Shown here: positions 3,261 to 22,623 of the stretch, piece after piece | Layout of the letters: each line of letters starts with the position of its first letter | How positions within the stretch are numbered: the first letter of the stretch is position 1 | NCBI RefSeq assembly: GCF_003996995.1 | Contig: NZ_RZTT01000012.1 | Location: forward strand, 1 to 32,073 | Source of the DNA: Mesorhizobium sp. M7A.T.Ca.US.000.02.2.1 | GTDB taxonomy: Bacteria > Pseudomonadota > Alphaproteobacteria > Rhizobiales > Rhizobiaceae | Direction of reading: 5' to 3' | Length of the DNA stretch: 32,073 bases | Program-made: the position numbers and the translations under genes | Notes under the pieces: model-generated | The model's input: only the letters and a program-made list of their open reading frames with translations | What the model was told of the DNA's origin: nothing | Database searches by the model: none

Positions 3261-4343
3261 TCAGCGCAGCATGCGCGATATCAGCTGCGCCGTATAGTCG
3301 ACCATTGGGACGATACGCGCGTAGTTCAGCCGTGTCGGGCCGATGACGCCGAGCGCGCCGACGACGCGGGCATCCTTGTCGCGATAAGGCGCCACCACCA
3401 GCGACGAGCCCGACAGCGAAAACAGCTTGTTTTCCGAGCCGATGAAGATGCGCACGCCCGAGCCTTCCTCGGCGAGGTCGAGCAACTGGATAAGCCCGTC
3501 CTGCGTCTCCATGTCCTCGAACAGATGGCGCAGCAGTTCGATGTCGGCCTGGGCGGTGACGTTTTCGAGCAGATTGGCGCGCCCGCGCACGATGAGCCGT
3601 GCCGGCAGGCCGCTGTCGGCGCCGGCCCATACCGCCAACCCCTTCTCGACCAGATCCTGCGACAGCGTGTCGAGCGCGGCCCTGGTTTCTTCCTTGATGC
3701 GGGCGATCTCGATCCGCGCCTCGGCCAGCGTGCGGCCGCGTATATGGGCGTTGAGGAAATTCGAAGCCTCGTGCAGTTGCGAGACGGTGATGCCGGCGGG
3801 CAGCTCGACGACGCGGTTCTCGACGTCGCCATTCTGCGACACCAGCACTGCCAGCGCCTTGGTCGGTTCGAGCTGGATGAATTCGATGTGCTTCAGCGCC
3901 ACTTCGTTCTTGGCGGCCAGCACCAGGCCCGCGCCGCGCGACATGCCCGACAGCATCTGGCTGGCCTCGGTCAGCATGTGTTCCAGCGTCGCGCCCGAGC
4001 CGGACGCCCGAACCTGTGCCTCGATGGCACGGCGCTCCTCGTCGGAAAGGTCGCCAAGCTCCATGAAGGCATCGACGAAGAAACGCAGGCCGGCCTGGGT
4101 CGGCAGCCGGCCGGCCGAAATGTGCGGCGCGTAGATAAGGCCGAGATGCTCGAGATCGCTCATCACGTTGCGGATGGTCGCCGGCGACAACGAGGACGGC
4201 AGGATGCGCGACAGGCTGCGCGATCCCACCGGTTCACCGTCCCTGAGGTAGGAATCGACGATGCGCCGGAAGATGTCGCGCGAACGCATGTCGAGCGACT
4301 GGAGCGCGGGCGACTGCGAAGCGGGATCGACTGCCTTGGTCAT
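3261..4343 (-). CDS. hrcA: Heat-inducible transcription repressor HrcA
   Basis: HrcA represses chaperone genes by binding CIRCE operators and is released when GroEL is titrated by misfolded proteins. The 360-aa protein has the N-terminal winged helix ([20 protein letters not shown] followed by [21 protein letters not shown]), the helical dimerisation region, and the C-terminal GAF-like domain with [11 protein letters not shown]-type (here [13 protein letters not shown]) and [19 protein letters not shown]. Length is normal. It is divergent from rph, a common alphaproteobacterial arrangement. I see no CIRCE (TTAGCACTC-N9-GAGTGCTAA) in the 177-bp divergent region, so autoregulation through CIRCE is not supported here. 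grpE is not downstream. Confidence 0.97.
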
Positions 4344-4394
4344 ACGGCCAAAAACCTCCGGCCCAAGGATATAGACTTACACTGCACCCGCGCA

Positions 4395-4436
4395 ACCCGG
4401 TGTCTGTGTGAGATCACCCGGTGTCTGTGTCAGATC
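4395..4436. repeat. Two tandem 21-bp repeats in the hrcA-rph divergent promoter region
   Basis: Positions 4395-4415 and 4416-4436 are head-to-tail copies of a 21-bp unit beginning ACCCGGTGTCTGTGT, differing at a single base (G at 4410, C at 4431). They sit between the divergent starts of hrcA (4343) and rph (4521). They could be paired protein-binding sites on one helix face (21 bp is two turns) or simple slippage. Confidence 0.8.
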
Positions 4437-4520
4437 GTCAGGCCATTTTCCTTTGCGCCACGCGTCCCATGCGGTTACAAGCCGGCCAAGATTCCGAAAA
4501 ATGACAAGAAAGCAGCCTGA

Positions 4521-5237
4521 ATGCGCCCTTCCAAACGCCAATTCGACGAAATGCGTGCCATCTCCTTCGAGCGCGGCGTCTCCAAGCATGCCGAAGGCTC
4601 ATGCCTGGTGAAGTTCGGCGACACGCATGTCCTGTGCACGGCCAGCCTCGAGGAAAAAGTGCCGGGCTGGATGCGCAATTCCGGCAAGGGCTGGGTGACG
4701 GCCGAATACGGCATGCTGCCGCGCTCGACCGGCGAGCGCATGCGCCGCGAGGCTTCGGCCGGCAAGCAGGGCGGCCGCACGCTGGAAATCCAGCGGCTGA
4801 TCGGCCGCTCCCTGCGCGCCGTGGTCGACCTGCAGGCGTTGGGCGAGCAGCAGATCACCGTCGACTGCGACGTCATCCAGGCCGACGGCGGCACCCGCAC
4901 CGCCTCGATCACCGGCGGCTGGGTGGCGCTATACGACTGCCTGCGCTGGATGGAAGCGCGCCAGATGGCCAGCGTCGCCAAGGTGCTGAAGGACCATGTC
5001 GCGGCGATCTCCTGCGGCATCCATGACGGCCAGCCGGTCATCGACCTCGATTACATCGAGGATTCCGCGGCCGGCACCGACGCCAATTTCGTCATGACCG
5101 GCAAGGGTGGCATCGTCGAGATCCAGGGCACCGCCGAGGGCGAGCCTTTCTCCGAGGAGCAGTTCGCGGACTTGATGGGCCTGGCCAAGAAAGGCATCCA
5201 GAGGTTGGTGAGTCTGCAGCAGATGGCGGTGGCTTAG
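4521..5237 (+). CDS. rph: Ribonuclease PH
   Basis: This phosphorolytic 3'-5' exoribonuclease trims tRNA 3' ends and helps degrade structured RNA, working as a hexamer in the cytoplasm. The 238-aa sequence is full length. It shows the N-terminal [20 protein letters not shown], the substrate-binding [20 protein letters not shown] region, [20 protein letters not shown] and the phosphate-binding [17 protein letters not shown] loop. It heads the plus-strand cluster with rdgB and hemW, an order shared with many alphaproteobacteria. A mosaic element follows the stop by about 20 bp and separates it from the VOC gene. Confidence 0.97.
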
Positions 5238-19946: not shown

Positions 19947-19959
19947 GAGCCCGCACCAG

Positions 19960-20043
19960 CCCAGATGGCGGAATTGGTAGACGCGCACGGTTCAGGTCCG
20001 TGTTCCGCAAGGAGTGGAGGTTCGAGTCCTCTTCTGGGCACCA
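19960..20043 (+). tRNA. tRNA-Leu, anticodon CAG
   Basis: The acceptor stem GCCCAGA (19960-19966) pairs perfectly with TCTGGGC (20033-20039), followed by A and an encoded CCA. The anticodon stem CACGG/CCGTG encloses the loop TTCAGGT, giving anticodon CAG at 19993-19995, which reads CUG leucine codons. A GGTTCGAGTCC T-arm and a long variable arm confirm a class II leucine tRNA. It has its own promoter and terminator. Confidence 0.97.
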
Positions 20044-20065: not shown

Positions 20066-20100
20066 AGAAAAAGCCCGGCTCGTCCGGGCTTTTTCTTTTC
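20066..20100 (+). terminator. Intrinsic terminator of tRNA-Leu
   Basis: The stem AAAAAGCCCGG/CCGGGCTTTTT (20068-20078 and 20084-20094) with a 5-nt CTCGT loop is followed by TTTTC, a textbook rho-independent terminator starting about 25 bp after the tRNA. Confidence 0.93.
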
Positions 20101-20175: not shown

Positions 20176-21855
20176 ATGGCTCAATCCACCACCCAGATCT
20201 TCGGTGCCCGCCGCGACCAGGCGTTCCCCACGCTGGCCGCGGTGGATATCGACCGCATGCGCCGGTTCGGCGAGGCCAGCTTCTATGCAGCCGGCGAGCA
20301 CATCATCGAAGCCGGCGATGTGGCGCCCGGTCTGATCGTCGTGCTGTCGGGCAGCGTGGACATCACCCAGGACGGCGGGCTCGGCCGGCGCGAGACGATC
20401 GTCACGCATGGCCCAGGCAGCTTCGTCGGCGAGCTGGCGCAGCTTTCGGCCCGTCCCTCGCTGGTCAATGCGCAGGCCGCCGAACCGGTGGAGGCGTTTG
20501 TCATCGCCTCGCAGCGGCTGCGCGACCTGATGGTGCAGGAGGCCAATCTCGGCGAGCGCATCATGCGGGCGCTGATCCTGCGCCGCGTCGGGCTTTTGGA
20601 GAGCGCCAAGAGCGGGCCGATCATCATCGGACCCCAGGACAATGCCGACGTGTTGCGGCTGCAGGGTTTCCTCGCCCGCAGCGGCCAACCGCACCGCGTG
20701 CTCGATTCCGGCAGCGACCCCTGCGCCAAAACCCTGGTAGAACGCTTCGAGGTCGATCCGCACCACCTGCCGATCGTGCTCTGTCCAAACGGCAGGCTGC
20801 TGATGAATCCCGGCGAAAAGGACCTCGCCCGCTGCATCGGCCTGCTGCGGCCGATCGATGCCGATACGGTGTATGACGTGGCCATCGTCGGCGCCGGCCC
20901 GGCAGGGCTGGCGGCGGCGGTCTATGCGGCCTCCGAGGGGCTATCGACGATCGTGCTCGATTGCCGCGCCTTCGGCGGACAGGCCGGTGCATCCTCGCGC
21001 ATCGAGAACTATCTTGGTTTCCCCACAGGCATTACCGGCATGGCGCTGATGGCGCGCGCCTACAACCAGGCGCAGAAATTCGGCGTCGAAATGGTCATCC
21101 CGGACGAGGCGAAGCTTTTGAGCGCCGCCTCCGACGCGTCTGGCGCCCGCTATCTGCTCGATGTCGGTGATGGCGAGACCGTGCGCACGCGCAGCGTGGT
21201 GATCGCCAGCGGCGCGCGCTATCGCCGCCTCGACATCGCCAATCTGGCGCGGTTCGAGGGAACGTGCGTGCACTATTGGGCGTCGCCCATCGAAGGCCGG
21301 CTTTGCGCGGACCAGGAAGTGGCGCTGGTCGGCGCCGGCAATTCGGCCGGGCAGGCGGCTGTCTACTTGGCCAGTCATGCGCGCAAAGTGGCGCTGCTGG
21401 CGCGCGGTGGCAGCCTCGATGCCAGCATGTCGCGCTACCTGGTCGAACGCATCAAGGCGCAGCCTAACATCGAGGTGCTGACCGGGACCGAAATCGAGGC
21501 GCTGGACGGCGAAGAGGGCAATCTTGGCACGGTGCGATGGCGCGACCGCGCCAGCGGCGCGGAAACGACGCGCCCGATCCGCCATCTCTTTCTCTTCATC
21601 GGCGCCGACCCGAACACCGATTGGCTGGCGAATTGCGATGTGGCGCTGGACGCAAGGGGGTTCGTGCGCACCGGATCGGAGCTGGGATCGGCGCAGATGG
21701 AGACGAGCCGCAGCGGCGTGTTCGCCATCGGCGACGTCCGCGCCGGTTCGGTCAAACGCGTCGCGGCGGCTGTCGGCGAAGGCGCCCAGGTGGTCGCGGC
21801 ATTGCATGCCTATCTCGCGCGCGCGGACGCACCTCAAACAGCAGGGAGACCATGA
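20176..21855 (+). CDS. Cyclic-nucleotide-binding/thioredoxin-reductase-like fusion lacking the redox CxxC
   Basis: The 559-aa protein has three parts. Residues about 20-130 form a cNMP-binding (CRP-like beta-roll) domain (GEHIIEAGDVAPGLIVVLSG; GPGSFVGELAQLS). Residues about 145-220 look like a thioredoxin-like domain (GPIIIGPQDNADVLRLQGFL), but without a CxxC. Residues about 232-545 are a thioredoxin-reductase-like FAD/NADPH module with FAD site VAIVGAGPAGLAAAVYAASE, NADPH site VALVGAGNSAGQAAVYLASH and the C-terminal FAD-contacting SGVFAIGDVRAGSVKRVAAA. Where true reductases have CATC, this reads HYWASPIEG, so it cannot pass electrons through the usual disulfide. It is translationally coupled to the UBP zinc-finger gene. 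Its role is unknown; a ligand-gated flavin oxidoreductase is the likeliest inference. Confidence 0.9.
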   Translation: MAQSTTQIFGARRDQAFPTLAAVDIDRMRRFGEASFYAAGEHIIEAGDVAPGLIVVLSGSVDITQDGGLGRRETIVTHGPGSFVGELAQLSARPSLVNAQAAEPVEAFVIASQRLRDLMVQEANLGERIMRALILRRVGLLESAKSGPIIIGPQDNADVLRLQGFLARSGQPHRVLDSGSDPCAKTLVERFEVDPHHLPIVLCPNGRLLMNPGEKDLARCIGLLRPIDADTVYDVAIVGAGPAGLAAAVYAASEGLSTIVLDCRAFGGQAGASSRIENYLGFPTGITGMALMARAYNQAQKFGVEMVIPDEAKLLSAASDASGARYLLDVGDGETVRTRSVVIASGARYRRLDIANLARFEGTCVHYWASPIEGRLCADQEVALVGAGNSAGQAAVYLASHARKVALLARGGSLDASMSRYLVERIKAQPNIEVLTGTEIEALDGEEGNLGTVRWRDRASGAETTRPIRHLFLFIGADPNTDWLANCDVALDARGFVRTGSELGSAQMETSRSGVFAIGDVRAGSVKRVAAAVGEGAQVVAALHAYLARADAPQTAGRP

Positions 21856-22160
21856 TGGATGAATGCAGGCATACGCGCGACATCAGGAAGGTGACGCCGA
21901 GTGCGCTCGGCTGCGAGGAGTGCCTGAAGAGCGGGTCGCAATGGGTGCATTTGCGGCTCTGCCGCACCTGCGGCCATGTCGGCTGCTGCGACGACTCGCC
22001 CAACCGCCACGCCACCAAACATTTCCACGCCACCAAGCATCCGATCATCGAGGGCTACGATCCGCCGGAAGGCTGGGCATGGTGCTATGTCGACGAGGTG
22101 TTTGTCGACCTCGGCGACGACGTGACCCTGCAGAACGGCCCGATCCCGCGCTTTGTTTGA
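21852..22160 (+). CDS. Bacterial UBP-type (ZnF-UBP) zinc-finger protein
   Basis: The 102-aa protein is one ZnF-UBP domain, the fold that in eukaryotic deubiquitinases grips the free C-terminal GlyGly of ubiquitin. Zinc-ligand candidates are in order: CRHTRD, CEECLKSG, LCRTCGHVGCCDDSPNRHAT and HFHATKHP, matching the C/H spacing of the family. The start is ATG at 21852, overlapping the previous stop (ATGATGG); the second ATG at 21855 is better spaced from GGGAG. Coupling to the flavoprotein suggests the two work together, possibly on a peptide or protein C-terminus or a small molecule. Bacterial functions of this family are not established. Confidence 0.88.
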   Translation: MMDECRHTRDIRKVTPSALGCEECLKSGSQWVHLRLCRTCGHVGCCDDSPNRHATKHFHATKHPIIEGYDPPEGWAWCYVDEVFVDLGDDVTLQNGPIPRFV

Positions 22161-22248: not shown

Positions 22249-22623
22249 TCAGTCAGCGAAATACAGATATCCCAGCCACCCGGCCAGCACGATCGAGGCA
22301 GTCCAGATACAAACAATGATCACCGCCGCGTAGCGGCTCACCGGCCTGTCGGCGGCCAGCGCGGCGGTCTTTCTGTGTTCCGCCATCACCTCGGGCGGTA
22401 TCATCCTGACCACGGCAAGGACGCCCAAAGGGACAAGGATGACGTCGTCGAGATAGCCGATCACCGGAATGAAATCGGGGATCAGGTCGATTGGCGACAA
22501 GGCATAGCTTGCAACACACACGGCAAGCGCCTTGGCGTACCAGGGTGTTCGGGGATCGCGAGCAGCGAGGTAGAGCGCATGCACATCGCGCTTGATCGTT
22601 CGGGCCCACTCATTCAGTGCCAT
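22249..22623 (-). CDS. DUF1232 (YkvA-family) membrane protein
   Basis: The 124-aa protein has the DUF1232 core WYAKALAVCVASYALSPIDL followed by IPDFIPVIGYLDDVILVPLG, a conserved amphipathic/hydrophobic hairpin, and a C-terminal transmembrane helix (YAAVIIVCIWTASIVLAGWL). The function of the family is unknown, although it recurs across bacteria. The gene is convergent with the UBP-type gene, with an 88-bp gap showing nothing clear. The ribosome binding site is weak. Confidence 0.88.
   Translation of the reverse strand: MALNEWARTIKRDVHALYLAARDPRTPWYAKALAVCVASYALSPIDLIPDFIPVIGYLDDVILVPLGVLAVVRMIPPEVMAEHRKTAALAADRPVSRYAAVIIVCIWTASIVLAGWLGYLYFAD

Follow-up and report, generated by a model that had tools for sequence, protein, structure and literature searches.

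What does a flavoprotein with a thioredoxin reductase (TrxR)-like scaffold do once it has lost the cysteines that define the chemistry of that scaffold, and what is its relation to a zinc finger familiar chiefly from the ubiquitin system of eukaryotes? These questions are raised by a locus in a 32,073-nucleotide stretch of Mesorhizobium sp. M7A.T.Ca.US.000.02.2.1 (assembly GCF_003996995.1, contig NZ_RZTT01000012.1, positions 1 to 32,073; hereafter the window), taken from the 6.65-Mb draft genome of a soil bacterium whose closest named relatives are Mesorhizobium. Two overlapping genes lie here on the plus strand, as do all features given below unless marked otherwise. The first (20176-21855) encodes a sensor-fused, CxxC-less TrxR-like flavoprotein of 559 amino acids (aa), and the second (21852-22160) a free-standing ZnF-UBP protein, of 101 aa when read from the ATG at 21855 and with an alternative start at ATG 21852. 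Both open reading frames (20176-21855 and 21855-22160), first described in an earlier note on this DNA, are present as described, including their overlap within ATGATG, where the flavoprotein stop codon TGA (21853-21855) is overlapped by the in-frame ZnF-UBP ATG at 21852. The assignment of the free-standing partner to the zinc finger family is confirmed as well (zf-UBP, PF02148; 50.1 bits against a gathering threshold of 22.7, E-value 3.2e-13). We propose, with a probability of about one half, that the two proteins form a module in which a flavin switch, fed by NAD(P)H and gated by a sensor, works with a ZnF-UBP docking partner. The TrxR-like scaffold has been conserved in this family after the loss of its cysteines.

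The pairing of flavoprotein and ZnF-UBP is real and widespread in bacteria. Genome searches scored a limited number of candidates per genome, so that absences are soft. In a Pseudomonadota sample of 299 genomes, the ZnF-UBP was found in 10 and the flavoprotein in 29, and all ten ZnF-UBP genomes carry both (Fisher test, p 1.5e-11; counted by genus, 4/13 against 0/140, p 3e-5). Among 297 genomes of the host order, the respective numbers are 28 and 52 with an overlap of 26 (p 1e-20); the ZnF-UBP occurs in 2 of the 245 genomes without the flavoprotein, and the pair lies within 1 kb in 20 of the 28 ZnF-UBP genomes. The genome of the window itself is counted within both samples. A family sample contained zf-UBP in 4 of 101 genomes. 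The flavoprotein gene was adjacent in ten of the first eleven loci and lay 5.3 kb off on the other strand in the remaining one.

At least 589 related ZnF-UBP stretches are among the matches listed. The best 80 of these, a choice biased to near relatives, were named as loci, and in 55 of them a flavoprotein gene lies no more than 6 kb away, be it upstream, downstream or on the opposite strand (47 on the same strand within 500 bp, 5 on the opposite strand within 500 bp and 3 further away). Among the 25 loci without a neighbouring flavoprotein, five of which end at a contig end on at least one side, 22 belong to genomes with a homologue elsewhere, one to a genome with a canonical-reductase-like core match only, and two to genomes with none. 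A recheck with the ZnF-UBP of the window matched 0 of 25 genomes, in a set that holds no known-positive genome. Restriction of the pair to close strains, which would have undone the earlier note, is rejected by these numbers and by the wide spread of the adjacency over Pseudomonadota and Actinomycetota. Likewise, the number of related stretches and the invariant dinucleotide-site residues rule out a chance reading frame or a pseudogene. In a 101-row tree, the nearest relatives are Mesorhizobium and the UBP-adjacent label changes 9 times over the 82 rows counted, a count that left out the group 'otherUBPgenome' with its nine UBP-adjacent rows (loci L010-L019).

The loss of the cysteine pair is general as well. 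When aligned with mycobacterial TrxR, the segment YWASPIEGRLC (residues 367-377; 21274-21306) replaces the CATCDG-type site, with Ile372 at the second Cys, Glu373 at the acid and a loop longer by one residue; HYWASPIEG thus does stand where thioredoxin reductases have a CATC-type site. None of the 114 scorable homologue rows shows a CxxC ahead of the NAD(P)H motif (116 rows in total, duplicates and own genome included, with one truncated row and one row whose motif was missed by the pattern left unscored). The 93 aligned rows, one of them the window protein, exclude duplicates, further rows of the own genome and the truncated one, and include some partial sequences (the shortest of 353 aa). 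Cys is found at position 368 or 369 in 0/93 of them, and Glu373, at the acid position of thioredoxin reductase, is invariant (93/93), with Tyr367 in 92/93 and Cys377 in 90/93. Cys377 (21304-21306) lies four residues past Glu373. The glutaredoxin (Grx)-like domain of the window protein is also without CxxC. Absence of the cysteine pair is a trait of the fused family, and the proposition that its homologues mostly retain CxxC is rejected.

CxxC-bearing sisters are found in a second phylum, that of the L110 genome (Thermomicrobiales; NCBI Thermomicrobiota), from which 201 genomes were searched. A flavoprotein match at 1e-50 was obtained in 55 genomes, classified into 22 with a CxxC-less member and 34 with a C(A/S)TCD-type member, one genome having both. 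One of the 22 'CxxC-less' genomes (G721, locus L260) has CAASD, with one Cys and Asp, and is without ZnF-UBP; by this motif it may belong with the CxxC-bearing sisters. The CxxC-less rows of this phylum keep Glu in 23/24 cases and have Cys at the 377 position in only 4/24, so Cys377 failed as a candidate for a universal catalytic cysteine. The CxxC-bearing Grx-TrxR-like proteins (34 genomes; loci among L223-L261) share the TrxR core at 32-38% identity, and in most of them the match begins in the Grx-like region. They differ in that C(A/S)TCD is kept, in that the Grx-like part also has CxxC in 9 of the 11 scored (those detected among the first 30 rows), and in that they are mostly open frames of ~400-470 aa, and sensor-less as judged by this length.

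A FastTree phylogeny was built, with the motif masked, from 90 rows, namely the window, 25 rows drawn at random, six plasmid rows and those of the second phylum. One branch, with support of 84, splits the CxxC-less (56) from the CxxC (34) rows. Because the two row types separate across one branch, one CxxC loss is the simplest reading. The ZnF-UBP occurs in 43 of the 201 genomes and overlaps with any flavoprotein match in 19 (p 0.007); it is present in 15 of the 22 CxxC-less genomes (p 6e-7) and in 4 of the 33 CxxC-only genomes (p 0.24), the CxxC sisters being unlinked to it.

The domain content of the flavoprotein was established from Pfam and structure comparisons. A cNMP-binding-type (CRP-like) domain occupies residues 36-121 (20281-20538; PF00027, 1e-17, 64.3 bits against a gathering threshold of 27.5), and Pyr_redox_2 is matched at residues 233-536 (1.5e-34) within a TrxR-like FAD/NAD(P)H core of residues 232-550 (20869-21825). 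Between the two lies a glutaredoxin/NrdH-like domain (residues 145-231; 20608-20868). No Pfam match was obtained for residues 146-229, and the AlphaFold model of the domain (pLDDT 91) resembles glutaredoxin/NrdH folds, with cGrx1 as the best match in VIA-align (Z 11.5, root-mean-square deviation (rmsd) 1.4 Å over 73 residues); its Foldseek E-values are weak (best 1.7e-3). The CRP-like ligand domain and the CxxC-less thioredoxin-like domain of the earlier note are thus both recovered, and the two dinucleotide sites that it saw as kept have invariant site residues over 45 rows.

The overall fold of the core, with its FAD and NAD(P)H domains, is that of low-molecular-weight TrxB (Z up to 35), from which the window protein differs by the absence of CxxC, Glu in place of Asp, the extra sensor and Grx-like domains, and a score below the cut-off of TIGR01292 (thioredoxin-disulfide reductase; 218.1 bits against 343.45). 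Whole AhpF chains (1hyu, 4o5q) are the top Foldseek matches and share the TrxR-like core, with TIGR03140 (AhpF) also below its cut-off (170 bits against 503). In AhpF, thioredoxin folds precede the core, CxxC occurs in both the N-terminal domain and the core, and the AhpC peroxiredoxin is the partner. In contrast, the window protein has one small Grx-like domain and a sensor fusion (cNMP, or REC in a relative), and no AhpF-type CxxC was found in its N-terminal part or core. Its relatives are publicly annotated as 'cyclic nucleotide-binding domain-containing thioredoxin-disulfide reductase' or 'FAD-dependent oxidoreductase', and the partner as 'UBP-type zinc finger domain-containing protein'; the CxxC loss makes the label 'thioredoxin-disulfide reductase' doubtful. 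The flavoprotein model is closer to TrxR in the flavin-reducing (FR) arrangement (5mh4, Z 34.8, rmsd 2.1 Å; 1f6m, Z 34.0, rmsd 2.4 Å) than to the flavin-oxidizing (FO) arrangement (5mjk, Z 29.0, rmsd 7.4 Å). Since the protein has no dithiol to be reduced, a flavin that permanently faces NAD(P)H would be plausible.

The sensor is the variable part of the pair. cNMP_binding is matched in 44 of the 45 members of an alignment drawn entirely from ZnF-UBP loci (A2). On a Streptomyces fungicidicus plasmid, the UBP-linked flavoprotein is REC-TrxR-like, with REC instead of cNMP (L162:841-4324), and its operon further holds genes for a protein that combines cNMP and HATPase domains and for a ZnF-UBP; judged by these domains, this appears to be the module in a phosphorelay form. 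Pfam detects no sensor in the UBP-linked flavoproteins of Rhodococcus qingshengii and Paraburkholderia dioscoreae, and that of Burkholderia pyrrocinia is sensor-less by its length of 423 aa. Since the sensor is cNMP, REC or none and the core and ZnF-UBP are constant, the gating input appears to vary. Within the cNMP domain, Glu86 is found in 82/87 rows and Arg93 in 61/88, and four actinobacterial cNMP-type members inspected have no Arg at the 93 position; we take these two as putative phosphate-binding-cassette residues. For the 'ligand-gated redox switch' of the earlier note, a sensor-gated redox role fits these observations, and gating by a ligand is a possibility that the Arg93 count and the members with REC or no sensor weaken.

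The pocket of the zinc finger bears on what it may bind. C20, C23, C36, C39, C44, H52, H56 and H62 are present in 96/96 ZnF-UBP rows, at the zinc-ligand positions. Asp46 (codon 21990-21992) is also found in 96/96 bacterial rows, the window included and cyanobacterial and antiporter-fused proteins among them. In the HMMER alignment it faces, ungapped, the Arg of USP16, the contact for the terminal diglycine of ubiquitin. USP49 and USP33 have a gap at 46, their Arg or Glu facing residue 47; counted from the preceding Cys, they read C-G-R and C-G-E, against C-C-D in the window. Nearly all rows carry D, Q, S or E as residue 47, and Arg does not occur among the residues inspected. By alignment, then, the charge at the ubiquitin-binding position is reversed in bacterial ZnF-UBP. 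In a 2026 study (PMC13376213), the zf-UBP domains of USP20 and USP33 show no measurable affinity for the C-terminus of ubiquitin; their ligands are [KR]xxL[NED] peptides, bound in USP20 via Glu55 and Asp59. These fingers are like the bacterial ones in having an acidic residue where ubiquitin binders carry Arg, but they are eukaryotic, lie within deubiquitinases, and in USP33 the Glu faces Asp47 in the HMMER alignment. The ligand of the bacterial finger may, by analogy, be a basic or internal peptide.

Taken together, the proposed module would operate as follows. In the flavoprotein, NAD(P)H would reduce the FAD by hydride transfer. As neither the core nor the Grx-like domain retains its CxxC pair, dithiol transfer of electrons is not expected, and a protein partner or acceptor would receive either the electrons or the redox state of the flavin as such. 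The exchangeable N-terminal domain, which is of the cNMP type in the window protein and REC or missing in some relatives, would gate the flavin step. The ZnF-UBP would serve as its dedicated partner for docking, with a peptide from either the flavoprotein or a target as ligand, and not a ubiquitin tail.

Alternatively, the flavoprotein could still be a thioredoxin or disulfide reductase using cysteines in trans, namely ZnF-UBP thiols, Cys377 or an operon thioredoxin. The near-constant Cys377 of the 93 rows would suit such a role, as would trxA directly before the ZnF-UBP and flavoprotein genes in 4 of 8 actinobacterial plasmid regions (with WCxPC in the two read). We consider it unlikely, because CxxC is missing from the core site and from the Grx-like domain of the window, Cys377 is missing in 20 of the 24 second-phylum CxxC-less rows, and the ZnF-UBP cysteines are invariant at zinc-ligand positions. 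Moreover, a TrxB-like gene with CATCDG is present elsewhere in the same genome, apparently as one gene split between the ends of contigs C124 and C192. Ferredoxin/flavodoxin oxidoreductases of the FNR type are not known to carry CxxC, and a related enzyme giving electrons from NAD(P)H to a small carrier would be compatible with the alignment of Bacillus FNR (8c16_B; Z 29.2, rmsd 3.3 Å, 22% identity). TrxR chains align better, however (Z up to 35), and none of the genes next to the pair stood out as a carrier, no search aimed at ferredoxins having been made; an FNR-like function is accordingly doubtful.

A pseudoenzyme that binds NAD(P)H and FAD only as a redox or dinucleotide sensor and sends a conformational signal through the ZnF-UBP would fit the loss of the dithiol pairs next to the kept dinucleotide-site residues, and would agree with the attached sensor domains. 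The invariance of Glu373 speaks against it, as it suggests that some proton or electron chemistry has been retained, and we assign this reading a low probability. Least probable by far is that the ZnF-UBP recognises the C-terminus of a protein in the manner of eukaryotic ubiquitin binding. The finger does belong to the same family and has sequence matches to solved eukaryotic ZnF-UBP domains, but every bacterial row has Asp46 at the USP16 Arg position, and the acidic-pocket fingers of USP20/33 bind [KR]xxL[NED] and not the ubiquitin tail (PMC13376213); the 'C-terminus-recognising' label of the earlier note is weakened by this.

Several observations weigh against the sensor-gated flavin switch with a docking partner that we prefer. 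Half of the flavoprotein genomes of the host order (26/52) are without ZnF-UBP. In the second phylum, 24 of the 43 ZnF-UBP genomes have no flavoprotein match at 1e-50, and pairs within ~1.5 kb by coordinates are found in only 2 of the 43 (G705, G695); because adjacency is so rare there, the link in that phylum is one of co-occurrence. The ZnF-UBP is also encountered fused to cation antiporters or with no such flavoprotein gene in reach. The putative phosphate-binding Arg93 is not conserved (61/88). Finally, the Fisher tests do not model shared ancestry, and AlphaFold conformations are not evidence of function.

Candidate targets are named by the operons of some relatives, which contain chaperones, thioredoxin or antiporters. 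For inspection, 15 plasmid regions, eight of them actinobacterial, were chosen as selected examples. A flavoprotein of this family lies near the ZnF-UBP in nine; of the other six, four have none by tblastn and two have none annotated. A Clp-type chaperone is found beside the pair in 5 of the 15 regions. Four of the eight actinobacterial regions (L151, L153, L158 and L159; Rhodococcus twice, Nocardia and Streptomyces) have genes for a J-protein, CbpM, ClpB and thioredoxin followed by the pair, and the other four lack this arrangement. A DUF1931 gene follows two of the four J-protein/CbpM/ClpB/TrxA/ZnF-UBP/flavoprotein operons (L151:1-5936; L153:1-5988; L158; L159). On a Rhizobium leguminosarum plasmid, a cyclic nucleotide-gated (CNG) channel gene comes after the pair (one case). 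Fusions of Na_H_Exchanger, TrkA_N and ZnF-UBP were identified in Deinococcus and in a Phycisphaerae metagenome-assembled genome (L109:4327-6252, L152:1222-3255). A Paraburkholderia plasmid has the pair with Clp ATPase, Hsp20 and PsiE, a cluster that recalls the transmissible stress-tolerance island with KefB, Trx, PsiE and chaperones in PMC8290217; the words 'UBP' and 'zinc finger' are absent from the available part of that text.

From the ClpB/DnaJ/CbpM/TrxA operons, the Clp-Hsp20-PsiE plasmid cluster and the antiporter-UBP fusions, a wider role can be put forward tentatively, as a possibility that we rate well short of even. A cysteine-free Grx-TrxR offshoot could serve as a flavin switch gated by a second messenger or phosphorelay, with a peptide-binding ZnF-UBP adaptor, its pocket acidic, linking cation antiporters and the machines of protein quality control to the state of cellular NAD(P)H. 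If so, the ZnF-UBP would be a bacterial redox-stress adaptor working without ubiquitin. In the 80 best loci, single-query tblastn at 1e-8 gave matches for TRX in 1, CLPB in 0, CBPM in 0, CNG channel in 0, USP in 1 and antiporters in 3; since the USP and antiporter queries came from loci of the same set, the independent matches are TRX in L066 and KEF in L103. A chaperone/thioredoxin context as a general feature is thereby rejected, and it is only a lead because it was seen in chosen regions and is nearly absent from the 80 best loci.

A role of this pairing in redox signalling has probably been proposed on paper already. Burroughs, Iyer and Aravind (2011, Mol BioSyst 7:2261; cited in the reference list of PMC4506424) reportedly placed bacterial ZF-UBP within a novel cyclic nucleotide-dependent redox signalling system. 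That predicted system is reportedly defined by ZF-UBP linked with cyclic-nucleotide and redox genes, and the same pairing is probably seen here, where a ZF-UBP gene is linked to a cNMP-domain redox gene. The suggestion of an undescribed system is therefore probably wrong. A 2008 survey (PMC2602986) records zf-UBP mini-proteins in several phyla under the names putative Zn-finger or hypothetical. Similarly, the bacterial ZnF-UBP structure PDB 2ida, which matches window residues 4-101 (E-value 4e-56), was deposited as 'Hypothetical protein'. Searches of the open literature found no experimental study of a bacterial ZnF-UBP. The present analysis narrows the question to a partner from a CxxC-less flavoprotein branch and a pocket of opposite charge, and makes the old prediction directly testable. 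It contributes the probable single CxxC loss, the charge reversal, the exchange of sensors and, for some relatives, the chaperone and antiporter surroundings.

Along the window, dapB and gpm are followed by tRNA-Leu(CAG) (19959-20043), a terminator-like hairpin with a T-run (20068-20099) between this tRNA and the pair, and then the two overlapping genes, the second of which is preceded by a Shine-Dalgarno-like AGGGAG (21843-21848). tRNA-Leu(CAG) is also located upstream of the flavoprotein, within ~1.7 kb, in 5 of 9 other Mesorhizobium loci. The genome carries one copy each of the flavoprotein and ZnF-UBP genes. A gene for a DUF1232 protein adjoins the pair on the minus strand (22249-22623), as it does in L032 and L035. 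For the cyanobacterial plasmid ZnF-UBPs (L154, L165), no TrxR-like gene was found within 4 kb. A stretch 48% identical to the flavoprotein core is present at positions 4216-5151 of MT838110.1, a faecal 'Bacteriophage sp.' entry that may be a misassigned bacterial contig.

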